Source of the DNA: Capitulum mitella
Taxonomy: Eukaryota; Arthropoda; Thecostraca; Pollicipedomorpha; Pollicipedidae
NCBI GenBank assembly: GCA_030062745.1
Contig: CP099845.1
Span: forward strand, 20,230,056-20,294,055
Length of the DNA: 64,000 bases
Direction of reading: 5' to 3'
A program made the position numbers and the translations under genes. The notes below the pieces were generated by a model. That model saw nothing but the letters and a program-made list of their open reading frames with translations, did no database searches and had not been told where the DNA came from. Shown here piece after piece: positions 3,147-64,000 of the stretch. Numbering within the stretch: the first letter of the stretch is position 1; the number at the start of each line of letters is the position of its first letter.

Positions 3147-4408
3147 CTAGGTCATCTGCAGCAGGACGAGCGTGTAGGTGGCGAGGCCGACGGTCATATT
3201 CCCCATGAGGCTGTTGTTGATGTTGGGAAGACCAGTGACGCCGATTCTGGGCTGCAGAAACTTGACGAGCTCCACCAGGGCGTCGGCCTCGCGGTGCGCG
3301 GCCGGCTCGGTCGGCGGCGTCATCAACAGCAGTGCCGCCGGCCGGCGCGCCGCCTCTTCAGCCCTCTGGCCGAGCACGCAGAGCGTCGCTGTGTGCGCGG
3401 CCGCCTCCACCAGTGTCAGCACCAAGGTGGTCACGCCCTGCGGCGTCGGCGGACGGCGGCTGAATGTCACGAGGACCGACATGCAGTAGGTGACCAGGTG
3501 GATGACGCCGAGCAGCGTCGGCAGCGCCAGCACCTCACTGAAGCCCTCGACGGCGGTGGAGGCGGCGCAGTAGCGAGCGTGCAGCGCGCGGAGGCAAGTC
3601 GGCAGATGGCCGCCGCCGCCGGCGTCGGGGCGCGAAGCGGAGAGGACTACGGACTCGCCGACTCTGGGGCGTTGCCCGGTCGGCCTGCGACGGCTGGACG
3701 GCGTGTCCGAGACGTTCGTCAGGGACATGTGGCAGACGTCGTCACTGCGGTCCTTGGTGGTCACTTCTGATGTCAGTAGGCGAACGACGTCCCTAGAGAT
3801 GACTTCAAACAGTTGGTCAGACGTTGCCAAGATCATGACGTTCAAGGATAGAAAGCATGTGTTTCGCACGATGACGATGGCGACGTATATTCGGACAACA
3901 ATCCAAAGAAATTCGCTGTCGCCAGTAGCATAAATTGAACAACGATCATAAATTTTCCATATTTTCAAACAGAAATTAATAGCAAGCACAACGGTGGGAA
4001 TCAGTTCGAATTTCTGAGACCTTCGAGAATCATTTTCCTCGCGAACAGACTTTGGCATATTCAAAACGAGTAGAAAATCGGATGTCTTTCTTCCTCGGGA
4101 TAGCATAACCCACGATGAGACGACCAAACACGAGTTTATGATTACCTGAAAAAAAACAGGGACACCACTGGATGACCAAAACCGTACAGGTTTATGGTTG
4201 TCAGACCTATCCAGATGAAAGCAGACACTGAGATGACAACTGCGATGAGCAGTCCAAACAAGGCCGGCACGCCGCAGAAGCTAAAGGACGTCGAAAACCG
4301 ACCGCAGATCGCGCCACGCACCGGCAGTATGCCGGCTACAACGCAGGCCACTCTCCAAGGAAGGGGCATCTTGCTGAGCACGCTGTGTTCTGCCAAACCC
4401 GACTCCAT
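3147..4408 (-). pseudogene. Gustatory-receptor-family gene, left-arm copy, frameshifted
   Basis: Homologous along its whole length to the intact right-arm gene at 26552-27811, with about 90-92% amino-acid identity by eye. It starts at ATG 4406-4408 (MESGLAEHSV). The frame runs to about 4150, where a homopolymer holds eight T on the coding strand against six in the other copy. Translation then leaves frame and stops shortly after. The downstream frame resumes (VVSSWVMLSRG...) and is open to the natural stop at 3147-3149, keeping the C-terminal receptor signature TYTLVLLQMT. The rest looks undecayed. It is therefore either a young pseudogene or a homopolymer error in the assembly; reads across 4149-4156 would decide. 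Confidence 0.8.
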
Positions 4409-25333: not shown

Positions 25334-26551
25334 TGATTTCAGTGGTTCTTGTGATGGTTTCTCATGCTTAAATTTTGGAAAAATTCATTACCAATATCGG
25401 AATGTTAAAAGCCTGTTTGAGGGAGTGCGCGAAAAATGCCAACACAAGAACTCTTCGGAAATCAAAATTCTTACGCAATAAAGTGATGGCAAACGAAGAC
25501 TTCGCATCCTCAGACTTATTACCAGCTTGGCCACCTTGGACCACGATGTGCTGAACGGGAGCATAACTGAGAGGTGCTTGCCCTCGAATGTCCGCATCAT
25601 CCTGCCCACGAAGCCATCCAGAAGGCCTCAACGATTGGCACACACACACCGCTACAGGGCAACGTTCGAAAATGGCACCAGCGCAAAGATCGGTTTTACT
25701 GCGCTCAGTGCCTGACGAGGTTCATTTTGCTTCTCTGCTGCGACATATTGACAAGGAGACATTGTCGGTTTCGTGGGGCAAGCATGGCATTGTGCTGAAA
25801 GGAGAAGGGGACAAATCAGTTGCATTTTAGGTAACTTCAGGTAAACCTGCTTTAGTCAAGTGTTCGAGCATGGTCAAATAATCGTTAAAAACTGCATTTC
25901 ATTATCGTCTATGGTACTTCTTTCATTTGTTTTACCACCATTCAGCTTATGGCGAATGGCAGGCCTCGTCAAGTTTTCTCTCAGAGCCGGCACTGGACGA
26001 GAACGCCATGTGCGATATTTTACGTGCTCTTTGCAGTCTGTCGCGGCCGCGCCCTGCATGGGTTGTCGGGATTATCGAGCCGGGATGCCTGCCATAAACC
26101 GCGTATGTCCCGAGCATATTGCCACAGAGCCGGGGAACGACGTCATACGTCTCATTAGTCGCGCTTACTTTTATGTAGCTGGTAAATTTTCCATACGACG
26201 CTTAAGCTTTGGGTACACATTGTTCGCTGCAAAACTTGAAAATGTGGCCATTGAGAAGAATAGGCGAGAGCTGGTCAGTCCACGAACAGCGTCCATAAAC
26301 AAGTCCTGAATACACGTCCTAGCTATAGATTGTCCCTCCTGTTGATAACGTGATAGCATAACTGATATTCAACTGGTCAATAACGTGAAGCACCCTGCTC
26401 GTAAACCTAATTCAGTTCGATGACGCGCAGCACTGCAGAAATATGAAGACGATCCGGCACAAAGCCGCTCGTCGGCTTGCTGCATGGTGCAGTCGGATGC
26501 ATTCCGTGGAAACAGTGAGTCTCGCGCTGGCAGTTCTTGAGTGACATTGAC

Positions 26552-27811
26552 ATGGAGTCGGGTTTGACAGGAGAGAGCGTGCTCAGCAAGATGCCCCTTC
26601 CTTGGAGAGTGGCCTGCGTTGTAGCCGGCATACTGCCGGTGCGTGGCGCGATCTGTGGTCGGTTTTCGACGTCCTTTAGCTTTTGCAGCGTGCCGGCCTT
26701 GTTTGGACTGCTCATCGCAGTTGTCATCTCAGTGTCTGCTCTCATCTGGGTAGGTCTGAACACCATAAACCTGTACGGTTTTGATCATCCTGTGGTGTCG
26801 CTATTTTTTCAGGCAATCATAAACTCGTGTTTGGTGGTCTCATCGTGGGTTATGCTATCCCGAGGAAGAAAGATATCCGATTTTCTACTCGTTTTAAATA
26901 TGCCAAAGTCTGTTAGCGACGAAAATGATTCCCGAAAGTCTCAGAAATTCGAACTGATTCCCATCGTCGTGCTTGTTCTTAATTTCTGTTTGGAAATATG
27001 GAAAATTTATGATCGCTGTTCAATTTATGCTGCTGGCGACAGCGAATTTCTTTGGATTGTTGTCCGCATATACGTCGCCATCGTCATCGTGCGCAACGCA
27101 TGCTTTCTATCCTTGAACGTCTTGACCTTGGCAACGTGTGACCAACTGTTCGAAGCCATCTCTAGGGACGTCGTTCGTCTACTGACGTCAGAAGTGACCA
27201 CCAAGGACCGCAGTGGCGAAGTCTGCCACATGTCCCTGACGAACGTCTCGGACACGCCGTCCAGCCGTCGCAGGCCGACCGGGCAACCCCCCAGAGTCGG
27301 CGAATCCGTAGTCCTCTCCGCTTCGCGCCCCGACGCCACCGGCGGCGGCCATCTGCCGACTTGCCTCCGCGCGCTGCACGCTCGCTACTGTGCCGCCTCC
27401 GCCGCCGTCGAGGGCTTCAACGAGGTGCTGGCGCTGCCAACGCTGCTCGGCGTCATCCACCTGGTCACCTACTGCATGTCGGTCCTCGTGACATTCAGCC
27501 GCCGTCCGCCGACGCCGCAGGGCGTGACCACCTTGGTGCTGGCGCTGGTGGAGGCGGCCGCGCACACAGCGACGCTCTGCGTGCTCGGCCAGAGGGTTGA
27601 GGAGGCGGCGCGCCGGCCGGCGGCGCTGCTGTTGATGACGCCGCCGACCGAGCCGGCCGCGCGCCGCGAGGCCGACGCCATGGTGGAGCTCGTCAAGTTT
27701 CTGCGTCCCAGAATCGGCGTCACTGGTCTCCCCAACATCAACAACAGCCTGATGGGGAATATGACCGTCGGCCTCGTCACCTACACGCTCGTCCTGCTGC
27801 AGATGACCTAG
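26552..27811 (+). CDS. Gustatory-receptor-family seven-transmembrane protein, intact
   Basis: A 419-codon intronless reading frame from ATG 26552 to TAG 27809-27811, the usual length for arthropod gustatory receptors (insect 7tm_7 family). These act as ligand-gated cation channels or chemoreceptors in the plasma membrane. Hydrophobic segments lie at about residues 47-69, 81-102, 133-154, 167-193, 292-314, 324-346 and 398-417, giving seven. A long polar loop (about 205-290) precedes the fifth. The C terminus VTYTLVLLQMT fits the family signature TYxxxxxQF, with Met for Phe. An upstream TTG extends the frame by five codons, but the ATG is shared with the left-arm copy. The 3' half is far more GC-rich than the 5' half. 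The ligand cannot be inferred. Confidence 0.85.
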   Translation: MESGLTGESVLSKMPLPWRVACVVAGILPVRGAICGRFSTSFSFCSVPALFGLLIAVVISVSALIWVGLNTINLYGFDHPVVSLFFQAIINSCLVVSSWVMLSRGRKISDFLLVLNMPKSVSDENDSRKSQKFELIPIVVLVLNFCLEIWKIYDRCSIYAAGDSEFLWIVVRIYVAIVIVRNACFLSLNVLTLATCDQLFEAISRDVVRLLTSEVTTKDRSGEVCHMSLTNVSDTPSSRRRPTGQPPRVGESVVLSASRPDATGGGHLPTCLRALHARYCAASAAVEGFNEVLALPTLLGVIHLVTYCMSVLVTFSRRPPTPQGVTTLVLALVEAAAHTATLCVLGQRVEEAARRPAALLLMTPPTEPAARREADAMVELVKFLRPRIGVTGLPNINNSLMGNMTVGLVTYTLVLLQMT

Positions 27812-39169: not shown

Positions 39170-40105
39170 TGATTCCATCGGAACAAGAATCGACTCCAGA
39201 ATCGATTCCGCTCCGGCCAGTCAGAATCAAAACCGATTCCACTGGCAAGTGCCAGGATCAGATTCGGAGTTAAATCGCGGTTACCAACAAAATCAGAATT
39301 GAAATTGATTCCAGCGGGTCAATGAATTTGGCTGGATTTTGGTAGAACTGGTGCTTGAATCGACTCATTTGTGAAGTGGAATCGAAGAGGAATTAAACAC
39401 GGGTCTGTCAGCAATCGAATTTCAGTTGAGGCGCCTGGCGTAAGGCTGGTTTCCACAACCAATCTGCTATGACTCAGTAATTACCCAGCTATTTCTCACT
39501 TTTGCTGGTGTCAGTCTGCTGCGATCGGTTGCTGATGTTTGATGCCGCCGCTTTCTGAGTCTTGGATGCGTATCTGGAGCCGGTATTCCAGCACATTTGT
39601 CGTCAAGGCTGCCGCGCCATGTTACAGGAGCACATGCGGTTGCGCTCACTGATCAGTGGGAGTTATTGAATTTCCGGACTCGGCACACTGGTCCTTCCGC
39701 TCCAATTCAAGGTTAACCGCAGCGTGCAAACATCAATTATGAGTGAGAGGTAATTTCAGAAATGGCAAGTTTAAGCACAGAAGCCTCCGCTGGGTTTCCA
39801 AACAACAGTGGCGGTCTCGCAGCAGCCACGCAGTTCCTCCTTGACGAACGCCCTGTGTGCGCCTCTGTTCGCAGGCGTCCATCAGCGTCAGCGTCGGATG
39901 AGTTCCAGTCACCTTCGACAGGCGGCGGAGGGTGTGCCCCGAGATCTCTCTCGGCGGCGCCTGCAGCCGAGCAGTGCGAGCGGTGGCCGCCGAAGAGGCT
40001 GGACCAGACTCCGGGCAAGACCGGGTCAGACGCGTGCCAGACCAGGCCAGACCTGGTCAGACCGGGTCCAGACTGCGGGCCAGGTCGGACGCGCGAGCGG
40101 CAGCC
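39170..40105. other. Upstream region and probable 5' UTR of the SLC22-like gene
   Basis: GC content rises steeply after about 39850. A degenerate GACCAGGCCAGACCTGG-type repetition lies at 40005-40085, just before the start codon. Upstream open frames on the plus strand (from 39762 and 39808) overlap the start region and would count as uORFs if transcribed. No TATA box was identified. Confidence 0.35.
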
Positions 40106-41732
40106 ATGGAGTCCGTCGAGAAGAGCGAACCGACGTTCGACGACGTGCTGCGGATGGCGGGCGGCACCGGGCGCTGGCAGTTCTGGCGCATCCTCTGGCT
40201 CACCAAGTGCGTAGTCGCCCTCGCCTTCTTCTTGATGGCGATGATCTTCCTGGGCGCCGTGCCTGAGCACCGCTGCGCCGACGGCCACCCGCCGGGCGTC
40301 GGCTTCGACGACCTACCAGCCGACGCGCCGCGCTGCCGCGTCGGCAACGCCAGCTGCACGCGCTGGGTGTACGACACGTCGGAGTTGGGCTCCACGATGG
40401 TCGTCCAGTGGGACCTGGTGTGCCAGCGCAAGCCGCTGCTGGCGCTGATCCAGTCGCTGTCCATGGTGGGCGGCCTGGTGGGCGCGCTGCTGACCGGTAC
40501 GTGCAGCGACCGCTTCGGCCGGCGGGCGACGGCGCTGGCCGGCTCCGGGCTGTACTTGGTGACGTCACTGGCCACCAGCGCGACGTCAGACTACTACGTC
40601 ATGCTGGCCATGCGCATCCTAAACGGCATCGGCGCCAGCGTCATGTTGGCACCCACCGTCGTGCTCATCCTGGAGATACTGACGCCCGAATGGCGCATGC
40701 TGGCCGGCCTGCTCATCCAGCTGCCGTTCGCGGTCGGCCTGATGCTGCTCTCGCTGCTGGCCTACCTGGTGCCCGTCTGGTGGCAGCTGCAGCTGGTGCT
40801 AGCCTCGCCGGCGCTGCTGTTCGTCGCTGACGTCTGGCTGCTGCCGGAGTCGCCGCGCTGGCTGGTGGTCAGCGACCGGCTGCCGGAGGCGGCCGTCCTG
40901 CTGCACCGGATCGCCGCCGCCAACGGCGCCCCTCAGCCGGATGACGCCGACCTGCTGCCGCTGCTCGGCGCCGTGCGCGACGCGGAGCGGCGCCAGCAGG
41001 CGCAGTTGCGCGCCGGCGCCGGCGCCGCGCCGCTCTGGCAGCTGGTGCGCACGCCGCGCATGCGGCGCGCCATGCTCGTCACGTTCGTCTGCTGGCTCGG
41101 TTCGGGCATGTCCTACTACGGCATCGCGTTCGACATCAGCCAGCTGAGCTCGAACCGCTACATCGGCAACTGCCTGTCGGGCCTGGTCGAGGTGCCGGCC
41201 TGCGTGCTGCCGTGGCTGACGGCCACGCGGTGCGGTCGGCGGCCCACGGTCGGCGTGCTCTACCTGGCGGCCGCTGCCGCCATCCTGCCGACCGCGTTCG
41301 GCGTCGACGCCCGCCTGCTCCTGCCGCTGGGCCTCGTCGGCAAGTTTGCGGTGACGGCCGCCTTTCTGTGTGCTCTACATCTACACGCCCGAGTACCTGC
41401 CGACGACGGTGCGCACGGCCGGCCTGGCGGCGGCGTCGGTGATGGCGCGCGTCGGTTCCATCGTGTCGCCGTTCGTGATCGACGTGGCGTCGGAGCTGCA
41501 CGCCGGCGCGCCGGCGACCGTGTTCGGCGCCATGACGCTGCTGGCAGGCACCGCGGCCTTCCTGCTGCCCGAGACGGTCGGCAGGCGGCTGCCGGAGACG
41601 GTGGCCGAGGTGGAGCTCGACTCGTGGCGTTCGGAGCGCTCCGAGCGTAGCGAGAGGCTGAGCGACCTGCTGCCGGCTCTGCGGCGCCGCCAGCCGGACC
41701 GGCAGCGCGAGCCCGCCGAACAGAAGTGCTGA
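40106..41732 (+). CDS. Organic cation/anion transporter-like protein (SLC22, MFS), one frameshift
   Basis: It moves organic ions across the plasma membrane as a 12-helix major-facilitator carrier. ATG 40106 sits in a strong context (GCAGCCATGG) and opens with FDDVLRMAGGTGRWQ, the usual SLC22 N terminus. The long first extracellular loop (about residues 50-110) has cysteines (EHRC, PRC, SC, LVC) and an N-A-S glycosylation site. DRFGRR (135-140) is the MFS loop 2-3 motif, NGIGASVMLAPT and LEILTPEWR follow, and PESPRWL (about 247) is the SLC22 signature. Near 41361-41367 the frame shifts by one base; the +1 frame then gives YIYTPEYLPTTVRTAG and the last helices to TGA 41730-41732. Length is about 540 aa, intronless and very GC-rich. 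It is either an assembly indel or a young pseudogene. Substrate is unknown. Confidence 0.85.
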
Positions 41733-49794: not shown

Positions 49795-50620
49795 ACATCT
49801 GATGTCGAAAGTTAACTCGCGCACTCGAAGGGGGGTCTTTTTGTGTCCCCCACCTGTTTTTCTTGCATACCTCGAGAACGGATGGGAGCTGGTTGCGGCT
49901 ATTTTCTGACATTTTTGGCAGTTGAATAACTGGCCAATTGACGCAAAAAATCGAAAATCTGGCGAAATTTTTTGAAGTTTCAAGCATTTGAAGTCAGGCA
50001 AACATAACGAAAACGACCGTTGTCGCTAACAAACGGGAACTTTGTGAAAGAACCAGCGTTCTACCCAAAATTACCGTTTGAACACAATCACGCAACGTCA
50101 TTCGAGCATAAGATGGGTGTTCAAAGACCAAAGACAGGGTCAATAAGGGTCAAGGTCACCAAAGGTCAAGGCCAAATATCTTGTAACCTGGCCCAGATTT
50201 GTTTTGCGACATGTCGATTTGTACGAAATATGCATTCAATGACCCTAATAAAAACATGTTTGGCACATCGATACTCATATGTAAATACATATATACATAT
50301 ACATACATACATAAATATAAACACTGGAAGTGAACAAATGTACCGATATTGGTTACCTTCAATGAAAATGCATTACAAGACACGTGTAAGCTATCCCGTG
50401 CTGCTCGAAATCTGATCGGCAAAAGTTGAAAAAATAACGCCATAGGTCAATGACCTGACATGACTTCGAACTTAAATCGTCAGTCAATACGCCAAATGGA
50501 TGGAAATTGTATTCCACGTATTAACGACCAAACAAACATCTTTTTCCCGTTTCGTTCGAAAAGACGAAAAGTCGAAAACTACGGAATGGCCTGTACAGGC
50601 CGATAAATGACCTAGGGACA
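49795..50620 (+). repeat. Dispersed repeat rep-Z, copy 1
   Basis: Aligns to 55690-56785 over its whole length. It starts in a shared 'ggggtctttttgtgtcccccacct' block (split here for brevity) and ends in the perfect palindrome GGCCTGTACAGGCC followed by GATAAA. It has one internal AGGTCA cluster where copy 2 has three. No coding domain. Confidence 0.75.
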
Positions 50621-51100
50621 CGAACATTGCACACAATGTAAATCGCTATGGCCCCACCCTGTTGGAAAAATTCCATGCCTCTACATCTTTCCGTTTCTGA
50701 GATCGGAGGGGGCCACTTTTGTGCCCCCTTCCAGTGCGCGTTAGTGCGAAACTCCCGTCCATTGCGCGGGTTAAGAAATCGAGGAGTAGCGCCATCTATT
50801 GCTCGAAAGACTACTTGTGCAACTGCTTCGACCACTTTGCTGGCGACATGAAACTGGAGTGTCGGAATGGTCGGATCGACTGAGCGACTATACCACTGAC
50901 TGCGCCGGGTTGCAGTGAAAAACGTCCAGGCCGACTTAAAAAAATTACGAATGGCAAGGCATAGGCCAGGCGTACAGCAGAAGAGAGCTAAATGTCAAAG
51001 GTCTGTAATTATTATCCTGAAAGCTGTTCACAAAATATCTGGTAGGTGAGCAATTTACCTTCCCTCTTGTGTCGCAGAGTCGACGCAGGTTTCACAGATC
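50620..51100. other. Unassigned stretch
   Basis: No gene or repeat recognised. Confidence 0.3.
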
Positions 51101-51104
51101 CAGA

Positions 51105-51350
51105 AATCCGACACCCGTTTTGGAGTTCTTGCGATCGGAGTTCCGGCAGTCAAAGCTGTGGGCATCGAAACTGTGGCGTCTGGAGTTCTGGTGCTCGAAG
51201 TTGTGGCCGTCGGAGATGTGGCAGTCGGAGATCAGGCAGTCGGAGGTATGACATTTGGAGCCATGGGCGTCGGAGTTCTGAGCGTCGGAGGTATGGCAGT
51301 CGGAGATATGAGCGTGGAAGTCTTGCTGGTCGAAGTAATGAACGCCATAG
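51105..51350. repeat. 15-bp minisatellite, unit near GTCGGAGNTNTGGCA
   Basis: About 16 degenerate units. The 15-bp unit keeps every frame open and gives pentapeptide repetition in each (for example VAVGD VAVGD on plus, SDCHT SDAQN on minus). No flanking gene uses it. It differs in sequence from the other 15-bp array at 13185-13570. Confidence 0.8.
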
Positions 51351-51699
51351 TTCTGAGGCACACCCGTCACAGTCGTCCCTCCCTGCGTCAGACACGGTCT
51401 GTGCGGCGCGGTATGGGAGGAGTCCAACATCAGTCCTGCAGAAATCATCGAGGACAAGCGCAATAGGTTGCTTACATTCGGCTGCACAATAGTAAACTGA
51501 GCATGCCGGAAAAGGACTTAGATGCCGGCCTCACTTTACACGGTTTTTAGCTGGAAAAGATTGGTTAACTGCAACGCCGACGTCCGAATGTCAGCCCAAA
51601 AATCCTGAAGACTACACTACCGATTCCGTTCTTGGAAAGTCGACGTGCAGATACTATATGCTCTCCTATATTATTCAGATCCCTTCTTAATGATTCCCC

Positions 51700-52110
51700 C
51701 AACGTTGCAGACCTCTGATGAGCTGCTGACTGGCAGTGTCACATGCAGCTGGCCTCGCACTGGCGCCTCTGCCGGCGACGAATAGTACTACATCTCTTCG
51801 ATCACGCCCAGCCGCTCCGAACAGCCTGGGTCATTCGCTGCGGTCGAAGTTGCCTGTCCGGTGGGCTCTTCGCCGTGCGTTGGCGGCCAGTGTCGCGCGA
51901 AGATAACTAGTGATGACTCCATTTGTCCGAACGGACCCCGAGTTATCTTGGCCTGTGCCTCTCGTCCGACTGAGTTCAACCAGCCAACTGTTCAGACAGA
52001 AGAGCGCAAAAACCTCTGCCGACAAACCTGCTTTGGTAGCGGCAGACAGACAACGCACTTCTGTGATCCCTGTGGATGCGCATGTTTTTTTCAAAGTACG
52101 CTTCTCATAA
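51700..52110 (+). pseudogene. Cysteine-containing open-frame family, copy 3 (most diverged)
   Basis: The plus strand encodes TGASAGDE, a stop, YYISSITPSRS, then VACPVGSSPCVGGQC and TSDDSICPNGPRV, continuing open to about 52110 (QTEERKNLCRQTCFG). It keeps the core and most cysteines of the copies at 22647-23070 and 5965-6470 despite clear nucleotide divergence. It lies outside the duplication arms, so the family moved or duplicated independently. Preceded by a possible acceptor (GTTGCAG near 51708). Confidence 0.35.
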
Positions 52111-52189
52111 ACCGGTGGTCTAATCGTCCAATCGAACGATGCCTGATGTCCAATTTATTTTTAACATTGACGTTTGTGCTGAGGCATGG

Positions 52190-52565
52190 CCTTCTCTAGT
52201 ACAGAGATATGCGTCTCTAGTGCAGATGTATATAGAAGCCTGATGGCTGAGTTGATGTTGGGGTATCTTAATTTTTTTGTATGAAGTCCTGTCAGTACGA
52301 TAGTCAGACTTGGATTTCGTTGCCACGGCGCCAGTTGACTTGACTTTCGACCAGCTGTCTGCCTGTCTGCGTCAGGAGTTCACGGTGGGAGCGAGCTGTG
52401 CCGCACCTGCCGAGGTGCTTGCATCATTTTGCGGGAAAAAATGGAGATGCTGTGCATAGCGGCAACAGATGGCCAAATGGCCCGCTTAACTACGCACCTG
52501 GACGATCGAAACGGGCTATTTGTGCGCGGAGCTGATCAGTGCGCACTGCGTTCTTAAGGCAGTTT
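52190..52565 (-). repeat. Dispersed repeat rep-R, copy 3
   Basis: Inverted relative to 16690-17190 and sharing all of its blocks, including the 'catcaactcagccat' segment beyond the 'aactggcgcc' motif. Confidence 0.6.
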
Positions 52566-52594
52566 TGAACTCTGGACAGTACATTGGTGGTAAT

Positions 52595-52861
52595 CAGGGA
52601 CGTAGCCAAGGGGGGCCATGGGGCCATGGCTCCCCCCGAGCCAAGAGGTCCAAGAGACTAGATATATGGTGATTTCGCACGAATACGGAATAGTGATCAT
52701 GTATATGTTGCAAAAGCAAACATTGTATGTTTTCCTGTGCGTTAAACATGAGGCAAATTACATAAAATTACTGCTTTTCCCTGCAAATTTCGTCATATGC
52801 CGGTGGCATGTGACAAAATTTGAGATTTGGCCCCCTGAGGAAAATTCTGGCTACGTGCCTG
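52595..52861. mobile_element. Small inverted-repeat DNA element, uninterrupted copy
   Basis: The ends CAGGGACGTAGCCAAGG and, inverted, CAGGCACGTAGCCAG flank 267 bp of non-coding sequence. Flanking GTGGTAAT and GTGCTGAT may be an 8-bp target duplication with two mismatches, which would fit a hAT-type non-autonomous element. It is the empty-site relative of the copy split by the hAT insertion at 29851. Confidence 0.6.
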
Positions 52862-54282
52862 GTGCTGATGAAGTTTTGAAACAATATGTCCTCTCGTTTG
52901 CGTACTTACGATACATTTAACACGCAACAAATTACCAATGACAGTGAAATCAGTGTATGCGTCCTCCGCCGCCCAGGTTATGTGAGCTAAACGATTGAGT
53001 GCCAGAGTCTGCACAACACACAACTGCGGATCGTCGGCTTACCCCGTCGGGTGGGCCGAAACACGACTCCCATGAGGTATCGTCATGACGGAAGTTTTCG
53101 CGCAACACGGACTTTTTGGGGATGGCGTCTCTGAAAGAAAGGGGGCCTCGATTAAGATCAAGAGGCCTCTCAATGCCGTTTTGCCCACCCCCAGCATGAT
53201 CAGATATTTTGAAAAGCACTCAAAATTCTGATCCTGCTTCTTAATGGTATGCACCGCAACATACATCTAGCAGCATCTTGCAGATTATTTGCACCAGTAA
53301 AGAACAAGTCTTTTCGAAAGGGATGGAAGAAATAAGCAAGATGCTTGGCTTTATCACTCCATTCAGACATCATCATGCATGCCCTTCGTAATAATTTTTT
53401 TTGTTATAGTGCATAGCAGGGGTGTCGATTTACATTCTTTTGAGAGGACCCTGGCCCACCCAATATTGATTTGGGCCGACCCTATGTTGGTTTGGGCCCA
53501 TTCAGTATCTTCTACCGGTTTTGAAGGTGTAAAAAGGGGTCCCTCCGAATTCGGACCGTATCACGACACCAAACAGCGCTATACATCGCCCAGCGCCGTT
53601 CTACCCTCCACCGTGAGTCGTCGGCCGAACTCATCACGGGGAGCCAAAAGCACCGGTATCGCCGTTTCGCTCGCCTGCCGCACGGTCGTTACGTGCGACC
53701 CGGTACACACTGATGTGTTGCGCTCACCGCAGAGTAGTCCCGGCACGCCGCACTAAGGAGGGGAAAACACCGTCTTCACACACGGTATATTAAACATTTT
53801 TCGTCTCGACGTTTGTATCGGTAATCGGTGAGGTTTAAAACACAGTGAAGCAATTAATAATTGAGTGGTACACGGAGTGGGAAAGAATGAATCCACAAGT
53901 TTCAAACGTATCGCTCGAAATCAGCACTTCTAACAAAGAAACAATCAGAAATCCAAACAAATCAAATAGTACATTCGTCCAGTGCCAACATTCGCGTTTT
54001 ATACACGCAGGATGCAAAGGGAAGCCCCCCGCCCTTAAAGGCTCAAGCCCACAATTTATCCCCGGTCCCAGCACCTACCCCAAGGAGGCCACGGTGCGGA
54101 GTGCCCCAAAAGCCGGGCTTTCGCGACCCACATTGCACGCACAACGGGATGGGTCGCTCACCCCTTTGGTGCATGCGCCTAGCCCGGCAACAACATCCTA
54201 GGCACCTGATGCAGCGCCCACCGCCGCCTAGCGGCCGAGCGCGGCCCCACCGCCCGGGGCGTAACCAGACAGCCTAGGCGAC
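52861..54282. other. Unassigned stretch, GC-rich toward its right end
   Basis: Contains a short repetition of 'gatttgggccgaccct' and 'ggtttgggccca' near 53463-53500 and a GC-rich patch at 54000-54280. No gene recognised. Confidence 0.3.
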
Positions 54283-54859
54283 GGCTGCCTTAGGGATGCA
54301 CCGGATATCCGGTCCGGCCGGATATCCGGCCGGATATTAGAGATTATCCGGTATCCGGCATCCGGCCGGATATTTTTGTGATCCGGCCGGATACTGCCGG
54401 ATATTTAACCTTCCGGTGTACAATCAAGACGTTGCTCTAATGTCTGCGTCCAAAACCGTTTCAGGGGAAACGTGGCTTGTTGTGTTAGATTGTCGATGTA
54501 ACTGGCAGTTCCAAGTCGGTCTGGAGACCTTGGAACCAATTCTTTTCTGTATTGGTCCGGGAGGGTTCGGATATATCTTGCAAGAATGGGACTCAGGTTC
54601 AAAACTGTGAAACAATAGCCAGCATGCGGTCAGCAGCCCATCTTATGATTTCCTTTTTTCGAAATATTTCTTATCTTTCTCAAATTCTGACACAAATGCA
54701 TTAAGGAAAATATAAATTGTGGGCACTGGAAAATGAGACAGTATTTAAAGTCATACCGTAAGCACATTTATTACTGTATGAGCATTAAACCTTGCAGAAA
54801 TGTAGTCATAACCGTTGCGGTCAGTTCTTGCTTAATGGATCATCTCCATCACCTCTCAT

Positions 54860-55590
54860 CTGTCGGCAACACGCGCGCGCCTGGGTACGCGCACCAGCAT
54901 TTTACGCGGTATCTCTAGGTCCAGAGCAGCGATCACCTGGCTCATCCAGCGCTTTAGGGCGACTTTGGATGTTACGTACCAGTCTCCCTGAAACATCCCC
55001 TGCTTAATGATGCCACGGATGTCCTCAGTAGGGCACACCTGGTGCACACAGGAGGACTGCTGTCACGCACTACATACGGCACTCTGGCCTCTTCCAGCAA
55101 CTTGAGCGTTTTCTTCGCATAATGAGCGCTGGCCAAGTCTGGCCAGATCAACATATCCCTCTCGAAACAGTACTCATCCAAATATGGGATGAGCACATCT
55201 CCTACGCACTTCTCACGGTACATGTTACCATCAACATTACCCATACCCGGCATGATAGCAGGCTTTGTCACACCCCTGAGAGAGATGGCGGGCCACACGA
55301 AAAGATTGCGGGGAAACTTGCTCTCTGGCCTCAGTTGTACTTTTGCTGGACTTCTGCTGGACGTGCTCCAACAGAGTACCCAAGGTTTCCTGACAGATAC
55401 CTCTCGTGGTAGGTGAAGTAGCTTTCGTCGTCCATGGCAATGCCCCGTTCTTTCCGATTTCATGTGATCCGCGGGAAAGTTTCCGGATGCGGGTCTTTTG
55501 GGCGACCTCTTGTTTTTGGGTGACCTGGGGTGACCTCTTGCTCTTTGCGGTACCGAACCTTGTTTGCCACCAATATTTTTTTGTCACGTA
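54860..55590 (-). pseudogene. Tc1-like (DD34E) transposase relic
   Basis: The minus strand holds the DDE core. MDDESYFTYHERY (first Asp block, about 55435-55398) is followed by NLFVWPAISLRGVTKP, then LIWPDLASAHYAKKTL (second Asp, 55137-55139) and, after an approximately 11-bp local duplication that shifts frame, VCPTEDIRGIIKQG (Glu, with the 'PxE..W/G..K' context). Second Asp to Glu spacing is 34 once the duplicated bases are ignored, as in Tc1. The N-terminal paired-like DNA-binding domain is not recognisable and no terminal repeats were found. It is dead and nested inside the hAT-type element. Confidence 0.75.
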
Positions 55591-55689
55591 CGTTCTGGAG
55601 ATTCCAAACCTTCCAGCCGGAACGCGTTATGACACCCGTTGTTTTTACAGCTCGAATCAGCTGTAGCTGTCTTTTAACACGCGCACTGG

Positions 55690-56785
55690 AATGGGGGTCT
55701 TTTTATGCCCCCCACCTGCTCTTCTTGAATATCTCGAGAACGCATCTGAGCTGGTTACTGTTACTTTGTGACATTTATGACAATTAAATAACTCGTCGAA
55801 TGGCGTAAATAAATTGGAAATCGGCTGGAAATTTTGAAGTTTCAAGCATTTGAAGTCAGGCAAACATCACGAAAACGACGGTTGTCGCTGACAAATGGGA
55901 GCTTTGCGAAAGAACTGGCGTTCTACTTAAGACTGCTGTTTGAACACAGTCAGGCGATATCATTCGAGCATAAGTGATGGACGTACCAAGGCCACAGCCA
56001 GGGTCAATAAGGGTTAAGGGCATCAAAGGTCAAGATTTGTGACCTGATCCAGATTTACTTTGCAAGATGTCAGTTTGTATGAAACATGCATTCGAAGGCC
56101 CTAATAAAAACACGTGTGCGTACACTGATACGCTTACATATTCCAAGGTCAGTGAAGGTCAAGGTGGTTAAAAGCCAAGGTCAAATATCTTGTTACCTTG
56201 CTCAGATTTGTCCTGCGACATATCGATTTGTATGAAATATGCATTCAAAGACCCTAATAAAGACACGTGTGCGCACATGCAGACGCATAGATATATATAC
56301 AGATGCCAGAGTCATATCAGGTCAAGGTCATCAAAGGTCAAGGGCAGGTTTTTGTGACCTGGTCCAGATTTGTTTTGCAATACATCGATTTGTGTGAAAT
56401 ACGCATTCAAAGACCCTTCTAAAACACTTGGCATATTGATACTGACATGTATATACATACATAGCTATACATACATACAGAAATATAAACGCTGGAAATG
56501 ACCAGATGTACCAATGTTGGCTACTTTCACTGAAAATACGCCAAAAGATACATGTGGCGTCCTCATTTATTCTCAAACTGTCCCGTGTTGTTCGAAATCT
56601 GATCTGTAAAAGATGAAAAATGACGTCACAGGTCATTTACCTGACATGACCTCGACCAAAAATCCCCAGTCAAGACGCCAAATGAATGGAAGTTATCGTA
56701 TTCCACGTTTTAACGGCCCAACAAACACCCCGTTTCGTTCGAAAAGTTGTACGGAATGGCCTGTACAGGCCGATAAAGTGTCCAG
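55690..56785 (+). repeat. Dispersed repeat rep-Z, copy 2, with tripled AGGTCA unit
   Basis: Same start and end as 49795-50620, including GGCCTGTACAGGCC. A ~130-160-bp internal unit ('aaggtca', 'tgacctg.tccagattt', 'tttgtatgaaa.atgcattc', 'gaccctaataaaaacac') occurs three times at about 56000, 56150 and 56310. AGGTCA half-sites form DR0 and DR4 arrangements at 56319-56340. Confidence 0.75.
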
Positions 56786-57059
56786 ACTTGACCTTTTCCA
56801 CCCCATTTGGCCTTGAAGATATCGACTCACAAGCTGTGGGCATTTTTTACTAATTTTTTCAGTTTACCATATTTTTCTTTTCTATTCAGCCTTTTCGGTT
56901 TCATTATTTCAATAGAAATAGTAAATAAAAACATGTAAACATAACATCCGGTATCCGGCCGGATATCCAGCACCCCGATCCGGAATATCCGGTATCCGGC
57001 CGGATCACAAAAATCCCGATCCGGTGCATCCCCAGGCTGCCTGGCGACGGGCGCTTGAA

Positions 57060-58160
57060 TCAGGCATCCCTGGTGCCAGTCATGCGCAAAAGGTGGCGCT
57101 TGCGCCCACCCGCACAGTCCGCACAATGCTGACCGCAAAGGACCCCGAGCCGTGGCGGGCGCAACATGTGACGAAGGGAAATGAGTAACAGTAGAGAAAA
57201 ATCGGCCGCAATAGATAAGAGATAGGCAGAAGGTAGAGAATAAAGTCTAAGGCGATGCATCTATCTATCTCCCTATTTCCTACATATATGTATATTTTCG
57301 TATACATGGGGATAAGTACAATTTTTTATTCGGCAAATAGTAACGAAAAAAATCATCCGTTTCCATTGGTCAGAATAAAGTGGGTTAAATCCGTTGAGAA
57401 ACCCACATTTGGAGGGAGGTTAGGTTGTCAGGTCCTCGGCTCGAGTCCTCCCCAATCATTTACAGAAATCGACGTCCCTGGTGCACAGCTTTGATGTAAG
57501 AAGTCATGTTCAGAATTGGTAATTAAAGTTACAAAATGACGTTATTCGTTTAAAAGATATTTCGGAAATTCGCCAGAGGGTGCCTTAATGGTGGGTTAAA
57601 GCGCCTGGCCTACAAATATCGGTTTTGACAAGATTGATTGCCGACGTTTGACGTTTGATTGCCGTTTGATGATTGCATAGCATTTTGGATGACTGAGTTA
57701 TTCATTGAAAAAGCCATTCGAAGTATTTTATAACGTCGTAATCCTACGGCGTCGGGAAGGAGAGAATATTTCCCATTTCATTCTGCATAGGGGTAGCATA
57801 TATGGTGCCTTGAGTATTTCATAGCGTTGTTCATAACAACCAGTTTCAACGGAGGGCGTGTGGCGTTGTGAGCGGCAAGCTGCGTTGTGCTATTGTTTGT
57901 TGTTTTGATATATAGCGCGAATCCATTGTTGTATCTGATGCGGTTTCAAACGTATGAAGGGGCTGGCCATGTCTACCCATAGTTGCTTTGCCGCAGACGC
58001 TGCGTAGTTGTCGACGCACTTCTGCCATACGCACAATACGGTTGACGTAGATATTGGAGGTATTGCAGCCTTGCTAATCGCATAGTTACATTTGTGTAGG
58101 ACCTATTTAAGGGGTGTAGTTGCATTTCTCCTGTTATTTACTTGACGATCTTAGGGCGGT
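57060..58160. other. Unassigned CpG-normal stretch upstream of the multi-exon gene
   Basis: It may contain the promoter and non-coding first exon of the gene at 59958, because the next exon starts at a splice acceptor. A 62-codon minus-strand frame (57846-58034) is open but unsupported. CG dinucleotides are common until about 58160 and then almost vanish. Confidence 0.3.
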
Positions 58161-61100
58161 GGCATGCATAAAAGAAGGTTAAGCAGCCCAGTGTCATGTG
58201 CCAGTGGATGAATGACTAGCTTCCTTTTGTACTTTGTGGCATATCTGTGAGTTCAAAGGTACTGGGGAAAATTTACAAAGATAAGGCAATTTTATGTCTG
58301 CTCTCCTCCATTTTTACATTGCTTTATTTGACACCTTTTCATGAATATGTTCAACAAGAAACAATGACTGCTTTTCCAAGGGCTTTTTAAACAATGACTG
58401 TTTTTCCAAGGGCTTTTTGTCACCAAAATCCTTGCCATTCCAGTCCTATTCCTGGTATCTCCCTATGTGTCTCAGTCTCAACAACTTGTATGATTATGGT
58501 GATGACTAGATAAATTAAATATGTGATTTTAAATGACTAGATGATTAAAATGTGCCTGGTACATGCAATAGCAAACATCATCAATTTATGTGTTTGTTTA
58601 GTGACACATAAATATGCATGGTACCAAGTGTACTAGTAGCCCTTTTGAGGCATTTATGAGTTAAATTGTGGGGCCTCAGCATATTTTCCACTACAGCCAG
58701 TTGTCACATAACCAGCCATTTCTCTCCCTTGCATCAATAATTCATCAGATTGTACCATTATGAATGATTAATGCAGCTCAGAAGAATATTAACACTGCCA
58801 TCTTATGTTAAGTCTCTGATAACAAACATGTTTTTGTGCTCTTGTGCTTTTGTATGATGTGATGTCCATAAATAAGTGCTCATTCAGATGCATTTTAAAA
58901 AATTAGAAAGTTAGCTTAAATATGCATCATGGAGAGTCACGGAGGTACGGTACTTCAAATATGAAGTGTAGTTAACCAGTGGTATCAAAGTAAACACTAC
59001 CACATTGCAGCCAGTGAAGGTTGATATTGTATTCTGCATTTCCTGCATCCTTGCCATGCCAAACAAAGACACAGACCATAATTACCAACCTGTCACCTTC
59101 AAAGGCCTAAACTGTACAGTTGGTTGGTGTGGGTCCAGGTGCAGAGCTCCTTTGGCTGCAACGTGTGGTGTCCAGTCCCCCCCCCATTATCCAGTCCTGC
59201 CCCAATCTGCTCCACATGTCACCGATTGAGAGCACATGGTGTCAAGATTTGCATCAGCAGCCATGCAGTTGTAGAGTTTGAATCTCCATCCTCTGTGCTA
59301 ATGAGCACAAAAACCATATGAAGTACTGACTGGTGAAGATTTGTGCATAATGCTGTGTATGCAAACCATCATTTATGTGCTACTAACTTTTCTATCATCA
59401 GCTTTGACAATTTTTCTCCTTATGAAGTTTTATGTCTGCAGTCATTCTGGCAGGTATAAAGGGTTGTAGTAAGTTTGCAATTTCAAGAAGCCTCTGGGGA
59501 AGTTTCCTAGTAATTATTAAGTGCTGAAAACTATTGGGGATAGTTTGCCCAGTTTCCCCAGTGGTGGATATTCCCATACTACCATTCCACATCAAGCTGG
59601 GTGGAATATTATGTTGTGCTATGAAGAACTTTGATGTTTAATGTATAAAGTGCTTAAATTCAGACAACACTTGACGAAAGCTGAATTAGGTTGTGCCATG
59701 AACAAACACAACTATGCCCTGCATTGTCATCTTAAATTATTGGTGTTGTTTTGCATTTTTATTATCCATGCATGGATTGATAACCACAGTTCCTCAACAT
59801 TTGAAACATAGCTGTCTGCTATATTTTGTTGCAGTGAAAGTGGTTAATTCAAATTTTCCTAGCTTGCTGTATGCTTAAGAGCACAATTTGATATGAATGG
59901 CCAGTCTCCTTAACATCTAAGATTCCTGTGATTTCAGAAAGTTTTGTGTGGTTCACAATGGATCTGAAGCCATCTGAATTTGGCAAGGCATCTGTCAGAA
60001 AATCTTCAAGATTGAGCATGAAGCCTAGAAGAAATGGTAAGTCCCATGAAAAGAGTAGGCATTGCAACTTCCATGCCACTTCTACCCATGCCAATGGCAG
60101 GGCATATGCTATTAAAAGAAAATGTCTTAATTATCACTAGATTCAGTTTGTGTGGAACACATCACAAACATTCTGTGGAAATCATAGCATTATTGTGATT
60201 GTAATATTTTGTACACCAGAATTGAAGGAGTTCCAGATACCTGTTGGGTCTGATACCAAACTGATTTTAAAAATATAATGGGCACTTGCTTGGCACCTTT
60301 GTACATTAGTCTGTCTGGTCTGGTCTGGTCTCATGTGCACTAACTTGTTTGTCCATTTTGCACCAGAGTGAGCTGCTTTGTCCATTACAGCCATTGGTCG
60401 TGGACTTTACTCTGGTGCTGATACAGTATCCTTATTACTGTTCCCTGCCACAGAGAAGGTTTCCTGCACACCAGAGTCCAAAAGAGAAATGTGATGTTGT
60501 GAGCATTGCCTCTTCCTTGTTACATAACTGATCAGTGCTTCATAAAAGTGTGACATAGTCATGTCTTTTGACATATATAGCAGCTGAAAGCTTTCATCTG
60601 ATGTTAGCGATTGGTGCAATATGTCAGGAGAACATATGAGAAGGTTTGGAATGCATCAGTCATAAGGTATGATTCCAATTGTTGTATGAGTTATTGTAAC
60701 TGGCTGTGCTTGACTGCATCCATTCTGGATGCTGTGCATAGGCATTAATTGCAGGACACATTGAGTGCATGGGAAAACAGGGTGGTCAGTTACCAGCTTC
60801 CTCCCCAGTGTTTCTTCCCTGGTTACTGGCTGCTGACTCCATTAACTCAGCATTCCCTGTCGTGTGGGGGGAGGGGGTAGCAGAGGCAACTGCCACTGCA
60901 CCCAAATGCATGGGGAGTGGGAGGGGGCAGAATTTTGCTTTTGCCCCATCAAAAAGTAATCTCAACATAGCCATGGGCATAATTGCTGCAGAAGACATGT
61001 CCCCCCACAGTTTTCCAGAAGTGGTGACTTTCTCCCTGATTTGTAAGACATCAGATCGGTATATCCCATGGGGGAAACAATTTCCTGAACATTCAAGTCT

Positions 61101-61485
61101 GACAAAAGGGATCTTAACTGCATTTTGTCATTTGTCATAGAGCACTCAAAAAAGATCATATTTACCCCCCTGCCCCTCCTTGTTCTTGGTGGATTGCAGC
61201 CAGCTCCCCCCCCCCAGTTTCTGAACTCTGGGTACACCCATGAACACAGCATTGTATTTGCAACTAAATGCTTTTTGTTTGTTAGTTACCCAGTCATTGA
61301 ATAACACAATTGTGGAATCTGAGCTGTGCCAAACACTTCTTTACCCTTGCTCTTGTATGGAGAGGTGATGCATCCCCCTGAGGTTTTCTGAGGATGACTT
61401 CCTAATGTTTTGTGTGATCTACTTGATACTTGGTGTACCAGCCTCTTGGGCATCCTTTTGCATCTTATGGGCAGAGTGTTTCTGG
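58160..61485. other. CpG-depleted block (~3.3 kb)
   Basis: I counted nine CG dinucleotides by hand, while TG and CA are abundant. Sequence on both sides, and almost everywhere else in the window, has normal CG frequency. The edges are abrupt (last clustered CGs near 58145-58157; dense CGs again from 61486). The block contains a coding exon and a rep-Y copy whose CGs have become TG or CA. This is the mark of long-term germline cytosine methylation and deamination. Confidence 0.85.
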
Positions 61486-63843
61486 TACGTTGTCATGGTA
61501 ACGAGTTATGACGTCATAATGAGGACCATGCGAGCCGTTTTCGCGCGTCAACGCGGCTGTTTTTTTACGACCTCATTTTTGTCTCACCGTAAGACGGTTG
61601 AAGAGTACAAATGCATTAAAATATATACCAGTCGACTCAAAACTGTATGTTCCTGAAGATTATACATGTAACTGGCGAACTTATTCTCACCACCGTGACC
61701 ATCGCAGGTGTAAATTGAGGTCATGAGCTGCGGTAGAAAACACGTCTTTTTTTACCTCCGGAATGCGAAAGGAAATAAGCATCGCAACGCAATCAGTATA
61801 TTCGGATTGCTTGAGCTGTAAGGAATCAATTGGTACAAATTTTGTGCAATTCACCATTCATTTTGTCAAAAGAGGGCGGAATGTAGCTACGGCGTGACAT
61901 GCTCCGACGGACGGAGCAGCGCCGGCCGCGGAGTAATGAGTCCAGAGTGCCACGACATGCCTGTAATAAGATGTTGTGGTGTATACGGACAAAAAAGTTT
62001 TATCTAAGTCACGATTTTTAGATAACCGAAGGTGGTTCTGGGCCACGGGCGTAAGATAAGACCGTATGACTTTGGATGACTTAAGGTGACCTTTCAGATG
62101 TCATTCGACCATTGTGTTGCCCACTTCAGACGCTACATTTCGACTTCGTCATTACAAAAAATAAAAAATAAAAATACCCCTGCAGCTCCGAGAACGCAGT
62201 TAAGCCCACGACCCCGCTGGACAGGGAGTGACCTAGCATGACCTGGATTGAGCTCAGCCCGCCGGCGCTGGGCTCAGCCCGATCGCCCAAATATTCTGTC
62301 GACGAATATGTGGGAAATACGTTCTTTGACGAGCCGCTTGCGACCACCGTATCAAGTTAAAGTGAAAGGCTCTTAACGGCCCCTGCAGTTTTTGGGAACA
62401 TTTGCCATATACCAGGTGATTTTCTGAATTTCATTTCGCCCCGTCCAAATCGTCAAGATAATGTGGCCGAAATCCGGTAAATGCTCAACTTTTGCTAGTA
62501 GGTTAGATGGCTCGGAAGGGAGCTCTGTCGCCAACCGGAAACCTTTGGCGCCATCCATCTGCCCCCCCCCCTCCCCTCCATTCCTGAAGAGCTTCCGCCG
62601 TCCCTGGACGAAGTACCCCCGATTGATTACGGACCCAGTGGCCCACCCATTGTTTCTGATTTGTCATTTTCCTTTTATGCGTGAATGTCGTGAATGCCAG
62701 TATTTCCGGTTTCACAAGGAAGTGGCTGTTACGTCACTATTAAAGTCACTTTTGTGGTCGGGGACTACGTTGTAGTGCACTGCGTGCGATGACAGGAAAT
62801 ATTTGTGACGTCCAATAACAACCGAGGAGTCTGCTAAGTCTGCTAAGTCTGTGCTATCTTGCTATGCAACTTTGTGTTGTTCAGACATGTTGACGAAAAT
62901 ATGGATTCCACGCAGGCTGTTCCATGCAGGCCATTCATTAAAAAAAGTTTTTCCTTATTTGCGGTGGCTGCATCTATTTGACAGTCGTGTCCCTCACGAG
63001 AATGACAGTCTGACGGGATCACAATGCAGCTTTGTATCCTGTTTCAGTGCGAATGTATGACAGATCTTTACTCGAGGCCGTGAAATACCAGCGGAGAGGG
63101 AAAACTCTGCACTTGGAACCGATCAACTCCGCCTACAATACCATTCAAACCAGCCCTAAAACTGGGCTCATCTGGTAGGTGTCAGTTTGTTCTTCCTCGT
63201 GCTGTTTTGTCTAACAATAAAGTTGATCCCATTGTTCCTGCCAGGTGAAGTTTTTACCTGCTTGGCATCCGAATCCTGCGAAGTAGATCGTGATGTAGAT
63301 GTCCTGAACACCCCATTGTTCGTATCATGGTTGGTATCCCGATTCTGTGGCAAAAAGGTATCGTGTCGTCATGTGCGCAGCTTGCAGTTGTACGCAAGGT
63401 ATCTATGTATTTAATGTAATATGTATGCAGTGTGTGCTAACATGTAGTGTGTGTTAGCCAGTGTTATCATTTTGTAGCTGGCTCCCAGTCATCCCTCGGG
63501 CCAGATATCAAGCGCCTGAGGGGCCCGAACCTGCCATTGCATTACGGGGACGCTGGCGCGTCCCAGCCGAACTAGTCGGTGCACAAATTCAAGGAAGCTT
63601 TAGCCGAATGTATCCTGCATTTGTCAGGAAAGGTAGCATTATTTGTGATTGTATTTCTGTACAGTTACAAACAAATATTTTCATCGGATGTCATGTCTGT
63701 ATGTGGCCGTTCGAGGGTTACGTTACTATCTTATACTCTTGCCATTGATAGGCGTTAACGACGGAAACAGCCGGCCAGCGTCCCACCACCCTTCTGAGAC
63801 AGAGCTTGACTCCAGCAAGGCAGATGGAGTCAGCCAGATCGAG
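59958..63843 (+). CDS. Unidentified multi-exon gene, first four coding exons (continues past window)
   Basis: Exon 1 is 59938-60036 (acceptor TTTCAG, ATG 59958-59960, donor G/GTAAGT) and encodes MDLKPSEFGKASVRKSSRLS plus MKPRRN. Exon 2 is 63048-63174 (acceptor CTGTTTCAG, donor G/GTAGGT): MYDRSLLEAVKYQRRGKTLH and onward. Exon 3 is 63478-63632 (acceptor TTTTGTAG, donor G/GTAGCA): WLPVIPRARYQAPEGPEPA and onward. Exon 4 is 63752-63843 (acceptor TTGATAG, donor GAG/GTAAGA): VNDGNSRPASHHPSETELDS and onward. Intron phases (1, 2, 1, 0) agree at every joint, giving 151 codons without a stop. An alternative exon at about 63245-63398 is phase-incompatible with exon 2. The N terminus is basic and Ser/Arg-rich, suggesting a nuclear or phospho-regulated protein. 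Family not recognised. Intron 1 is about 3 kb; a 5' non-coding exon lies upstream. Confidence 0.65.
60780..61250 (-). repeat. Dispersed repeat rep-Y, copy 4, CpG-decayed
   Basis: The minus strand carries the rep-Y blocks in order ('gcaatccaccaagaacaagg', 'gatcccttttgt', 'aaatcagggagaaagtcacc', 'tctggaaaactg', 'acatgtcttctgcagc'). Positions that are CG in other copies (TCCGCCGCAG) are TG or CA here (TCTTCTGCAG). It lies in intron 1 of the multi-exon gene. Confidence 0.55.
61486..63047. other. CpG-normal remainder of intron 1, unassigned
   Basis: It begins with a dense CG patch that includes a CRE-like TGACGTCA (61509-61516) in ATGACGTCATAA, also present near 9071. No exon in phase with exons 1 and 2 was found. 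A C-run lies near 62562-62570. Confidence 0.35.
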
Positions 63844-64000
63844 GTAAGACCGCGGTCAGTGTACATCAGTATGATAAAATGCTCACGTCTGCACTAAAAC
63901 GGTTTCCTCGCGTCGTCTGCGTACTGGATTCCTGTCATGTTGGTTTTAGCCGCGATGTGAAGATCACCTTTGCCAAATGTGCTGGTTGGCTTAGACTTGG
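63844..64000 (+). other. Intron 4 of the multi-exon gene, running off the window
   Basis: Follows the GTAAGA donor at 63844. No acceptor was recognised before the window end. Confidence 0.4.

Follow-up and report, generated by a model that had tools for sequence, protein, structure and literature searches.

A sharply edged CpG desert over the 5' part of a gene in the barnacle Capitulum mitella, probably the footprint of germline methylation

What removes nearly every CpG from a few kilobases of barnacle DNA that is CpG-rich on either side, and what sets the place at which the depletion ends? The question is raised by a segment of a 64-kb stretch of the Capitulum mitella genome (hereafter the window, whose numbering we use throughout), for which the original prediction had counted nine CG in about 3.3 kb. 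Our recount agrees: positions 58160-61485 hold 9 CpG in 3326 bp, an observed/expected ratio (o/e) of 0.065, at a GC content of 0.409 against 0.476 in the flanks. CpG o/e is 0.996 in the left flank (50000-58159), 0.982 in the right flank (61486-64000) and 0.963 over the whole window (3570 CpG), so that the surroundings are as CG-rich as had been claimed. The further claim that nearly all other sequence is CG-rich is true of the window; outside it, three further deserts are found at a distance of up to about 90 kb. When CpG o/e was computed along the sequence, as had been proposed, the values were far from normal and a two-state segmentation placed the desert at 58158-61487, the nearest CpGs outside being at 58157 and 61488. 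Among other 3326-bp windows (50-bp steps, starts 1-54751) the poorest has 132 CpG, a Poisson model at flank density gives nine CpGs or fewer a probability of about 1e-64, and no desert arose in 3 x 264 kb of controls shuffled within 500-bp blocks. The features of the locus are as follows.

58158-61487, no strand: CpG desert from two-state segmentation, 9 CpG, o/e 0.06; putative germline-methylated domain
59938-60036, plus strand: predicted start-codon exon, ATG at 59958, MDLKPSEFGKASVRKSSRLSMKPRRN, from sequence and spliced frame
60985-61243, plus strand: second repeat-family copy, wholly inside the desert, CpGs lost
61345-61990, plus strand: old repeat-family copy crossing the right edge, in which the CpGs before 61488 are gone and those after it mostly kept
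61489-61516, plus strand: X-box-like and CRE-like sites at the right edge, belonging to the family of the straddling repeat
63752-63843, plus strand: predicted next coding exon, in frame, 6 CpG, o/e 0.73, outside the desert

The dinucleotide composition of the desert points to the kind of process that produced it. Among the 16 dinucleotides, CpG drops from an o/e of 0.96 to 0.06 and GpC stands at 1.12, while TpG (1.55) and CpA (1.54) are raised compared with 1.14 and 1.11 in the flanks. Per 100 bp of desert, CpG is down by about 5.2 and TpG+CpA up by about 4.7, which is the balance expected if methylated CpGs have turned into TpG or CpA. It might be argued that CpG is avoided here through selection or through another mutational process, acting on composition, codon use or DNA shape, and slight shifts elsewhere in the table (CC 1.32 vs 1.11, AG 1.04 vs 0.88) lend this some colour. 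However, the loss is specific to CpG, symmetric between the strands, matched by the TpG+CpA gain and alike in intron and repeat sequence, and the genome has methylation genes; we therefore consider such avoidance very improbable. The genes were searched for in the assembly of 477 Mb in 16 contigs. A DNMT1 exon is present whose best PDB match is DNMT1 (E 2e-33), an ADD_DNMT3 exon lies on contig C11 (46.2 bits, cut-off 26), and SRA-domain exons were found on C4 and C6, two places that may reflect two UHRF1-like genes. A second DNA_methylase gene on C4 carries motifs that we take to be DNMT2-like. By these matches, the barnacle has the methyltransferase toolkit: DNMT1, a DNMT3 ADD exon and SRA exons.

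Two repeat copies indicate what the desert looked like before. The copy that lies wholly inside has 1 CpG, against 5-11 in 13 other copies that we compared (of at least 38 matches listed). It keeps none of five ancestral CpGs, three of which now read CA, one GG and one TC; the 13 other copies keep 45 of 60, though the same copies define the sites. At non-CpG positions it mismatches at 37 of 227, and six of the 13 copies at 18-38 of 218-236. For the repeat that straddles the right edge there were 853 first-look candidates, and seven other copies were used, of at least 39 matches listed; a CpG was called ancestral if it was a CpG in at least four of the seven. To the left of 61488 this repeat keeps 0 of 6 ancestral CpGs (four are now TG, two CT), to the right 25 of 34 (Fisher p 0.0013). 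When each of the seven other copies was scored against the remaining ones, 17 of 29 left-hand CpGs and 164 of 207 right-hand CpGs proved to be kept, so the left-hand sites are less stable in any case; at a retention of 17/29 the chance of keeping none of six is about 0.005, a fairer figure than the Fisher value. Non-CpG mismatches are similar on the two sides (21 of 123 left, 84 of 417 right). Both copies support the view that the desert sequence once had CpGs and decayed in place, as had been suggested earlier from a single repeat copy. The suggestion that the block is not foreign DNA stands as well: one of the genome's own repeats runs through the right edge and has diverged at non-CpG positions to a similar degree on its two sides. 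The lower GC and the abrupt edges might otherwise have suggested foreign or misassembled DNA of another base composition. We rejected this on the evidence of the crossing copy and regard it as extremely improbable, since a second repeat copy lies inside the desert, the predicted start-codon exon within it can be joined in frame to an exon beyond the edge, and deserts of like kind occur on several other contigs.

The same repeat also locates the right edge. From the retention of 0/6 and 25/34 the edge falls at about 61460-61502, the best interval of a change-point fit in which CpG retention was fixed at 0.05 inside and 0.74 outside; positions 61407-61502 are within 2 log-units. Right of the edge the straddling repeat has lost 9 of 34 CpGs, no greater a loss than is expected for pairs of ordinary positions that have each diverged by 20%; this suggests that the right side has been germline-unmethylated since the repeat arrived. 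The border of a young transposon was considered as the cause of the edge and rejected: the repeat has its start within the desert, about 140 bp from the edge, and has diverged at non-CpG positions much alike on both sides. A further copy of the family was seen in locus L030 (1501-2117 and 2709-3517), at a distance of about 590 bp from where another CpG desert starts.

The change-point interval overlaps an X-box-like site at 61489-61502 (2 mismatches), and a CRE-like site, TGACGTCA at 61509-61516, begins 7 bp further on; we take the two to be RFX X-box and CRE motifs by name and consensus. Hence a boundary element might fix where the desert ends on the right: the pair, which is near consensus in the family of the straddling repeat, would bind a factor or act as an alternative promoter, and the sequence to its right would be kept unmethylated. 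This would refine rather than exclude a methylation footprint. Whether such sites mark edges in general can be judged from other deserts. Including the window, 261.5 kb of context contain four, which together make up 8683 bases or 3.3%. Those beyond the end of the window, in its numbering continued and found by segmentation, are as follows.

77792-79569: CpG desert
80330-81750: CpG desert
148532-150685: CpG desert

A looser setting adds a fifth of 415 bp in this context. Deserts seen whole at the middle setting measure 0.8-3.3 kb and lie at gene starts wherever a gene was recognised. We pooled 17 edges at the middle setting, from the 261.5-kb context and from loci L024-L027 and L029-L051. Edges are defined by CpG, which makes the TpG+CpA profile the fairer measure, though not a fully independent one. 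Over ten 50-bp bins on each side, TpG+CpA per 100 bp is 12.6-15.9 outside and 16.8-20.1 inside, and at the averaged edge it steps from 12.6 to 18.8 from one bin to the next; GT+AC, taken as a control across the same 17 averaged edges, has no comparable step. Sharp edges, on a scale of about 50 bp, are thus the rule in the sequence examined, and the remark in the original prediction that the abrupt right edge is unusual finds no support. An X-box-like match (at most 3 mismatches, within 150 bp) is found at only one of the 17 edges, the one described here, and CRE-like matches (at most 1 mismatch) near only two, so that X-box and CRE were dropped as a general boundary mark. The step is present in the average of all 17 edges, and the overlap with the X-box may be coincidence; with the X-box at a single edge, we keep the boundary element as a minority view and think it unlikely.

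Two predicted exons bear on the position of the desert relative to its gene. The start-codon exon is preceded by an acceptor, followed by the donor gtaagt, and has 0 CpG; with the next coding exon it is predicted to splice in frame, giving 57 codons over both. Because of the acceptor, seen by eye, the transcript probably begins with a non-coding exon further 5', and the start-codon exon is unlikely to be its exon 1. The earlier description of the block as covering exon 1 and much of intron 1 therefore holds for about 1.4 kb of the following intron and probably not for the term exon 1. A Pfam search with the 57-residue N-terminus matched no family. A DSN1 homologue was considered as the identity of the gene; a search with PF08202 gave no match here, but none in control genomes either, and so carries no weight.

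Which genes carry deserts was examined with two gene sets: ten 2.7-kb windows at proteasome genes (from about 14 places with 25 exon matches) and six 1.8-kb windows at homeobox genes (out of 123 matches), with a background rate from 2613 overlapping 2.7-kb windows in the 261.5 kb around the window. At the loosest setting a desert was present in 6/10 proteasome, 0/6 homeobox and 193/2613 (7.4%) background windows; stricter settings left 5/10 and 4/10 for the proteasome and 0/6 each time for homeobox. Six of ten at a background of 7.4% has a binomial p of 2.7e-5, and the proteasome and homeobox sets compared alone, small and with windows of unequal length (2.7 and 1.8 kb), give a Fisher p of 0.034. 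Two of the remaining proteasome windows have partial dips that were not called (o/e 0.31 and 0.34), and two have no dip (lowest 600-bp o/e 0.68 and 0.75). Deserts are accordingly enriched at housekeeping (proteasome) genes and absent at developmental (homeobox) genes in these sets. Five of the six proteasome deserts lie 5' of the first matched exon, two of them touching it, and the sixth starts within the first matched exon and continues downstream. The five upstream positions would fit promoter methylation, with a domain that covers the promoter and the sequence before it and not the transcription unit itself. However, the desert of the window takes in the start-codon exon and the intron sequence beyond it, and proteasome genes should be active rather than silenced; promoter methylation is, in our judgement, quite unlikely.

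Desert 80330-81750 contains an exon matching the PDB chains CG8481 isoform B (E 1.2e-5) and N-alpha-acetyltransferase 80 (E 9e-4). At about 83.1-83.4 kb, outside this desert, lies an Acetyltransf_1 (GNAT-domain) frame (E 9.9e-5), and exon and frame presumably belong to one NAA80-like gene. That a repeat had produced the CpG-rich gap separating the two deserts near NAA80 was considered and rejected, the matches listed covering only about 105-120 of the 759-bp query. Several other frames were noted along the sequence. Two gustatory-receptor-like 7tm_7 frames at 3147-4127 (minus strand) and 26537-27811 (plus strand), closely similar by eye and of a receptor type that fits an arthropod, have an o/e of 1.24 and 1.18, and a sugar-transporter/MFS-like frame at 39932-41650 (plus strand) has 1.14 in a GC-rich stretch (about 0.7 GC). 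Past the window end, at about 67.1-69.9 kb (plus strand) and 70.9-73.7 kb (minus strand), two genes that look similar by eye converge tail to tail, and both contain an RWK...CSRSGVY...LGF-like stretch as well as a coiled-coil-like second frame; Pfam gave no match above the cut-off for the two plus-strand frames at about 67.1-69.9 kb. Short tandem repeats with many CCGG palindromes (TATCCGGCCGGATA type) occur at 56946-57024 and 54301-54337.

We consider the desert to be the mutational footprint left by methylation of a short domain over the 5' part of a gene in an otherwise germline-unmethylated genome, with a probability of roughly 0.88. A gene active in the germ line would be the target. DNMT3 and DNMT1, together with an SRA/UHRF1-type reader, would set and maintain CpG methylation just inside the transcription unit, and 5-methylcytosine would deaminate to T; each CpG would thereby become TpG or CpA, depending on the strand that was hit, and in the end hardly any would survive. 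The promoter chromatin upstream and the gene body downstream would stay unmethylated and so keep their CpGs. Across the genome, the methylated targets would be the short 5' parts of broadly expressed genes. We infer from the sequence pattern that methylation is the cause of the CpG loss and that it takes place in the germ line; the gene would be broadly expressed, and the left edge of the desert would lie near the transcription start. The earlier reading as probable gene-body methylation is supported by its fit with the symmetric TpG/CpA gain, with the DNMT1, DNMT3 ADD and SRA exons and with the proteasome enrichment. As like sharply edged patches lie near other genes, the desert is a clear case of an already known phenomenon, one whose kind has been described in Daphnia and Ciona.

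Comparison with known methylation systems brings out likenesses and differences. In Daphnia, gene-body methylation is highest at exons 2 and 3 and declines from exon 4 onwards (PMC6097596). A near-zero background is common to both, whereas the Daphnia introns are described there as nearly unmethylated and the intron here, judged by its CpG footprint, is as depleted as the exon. No exon bias of the Daphnia type was seen in the desert: the coding exon has 0 CpG, but its surroundings and the two intronic repeat copies are depleted too. In an arthropod survey exons are mostly more methylated than introns, with little difference in two crustaceans (PMC7343188). Genes are methylated and the background depleted both there and here, the survey having measured methylation where we have a mutational footprint; the mostly exon-biased pattern that it reports counts against our reading, since introns are depleted here too. 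Sperm of Ciona has methylated and unmethylated domains with sharp boundaries (PMC3827831, citing an earlier paper). The likeness lies in the sharp-edged domains, in the same gene sets being involved in sperm and muscle and in an excess of stably expressed genes; however, about half of the Ciona genes are methylated, in domains over gene bodies (PMC3827831), whereas deserts make up 3.3% of our 261.5-kb context. In the copepod Eurytemora carolleeae the CpG o/e of genes is unimodal with a mean of 0.5, and DNMT3 was not found (PMC11706791); here CpG is almost wholly lost, but over short stretches, and the genome has a DNMT3 ADD exon. A literature search on barnacle methylation listed no paper on the subject. 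Features local to this case are the almost total loss, which extends to introns, the short extent of the desert at the 5' end and a repeat by which the edge can be located.

If our reading is right, an unannotated barnacle genome could be scanned for germline-methylated genes by sequence alone, since the background CpG o/e is near 1.0 and that of deserts near 0. The straddling repeat would serve as an internal control for the stability of a methylated-domain edge over evolutionary time. A more far-reaching idea, which we hold to be doubtful, is that barnacle genes bear methylated islands of 1-3 kb over their first exons and introns, whose edges are locally fixed (here by the RFX/CRE-like pair donated by the repeat) and have stayed steady within some tens of bases while neutral sites diverged by roughly a fifth. 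If this were true, the barnacle genome would be a natural record of the precision with which such edges are inherited in animals.
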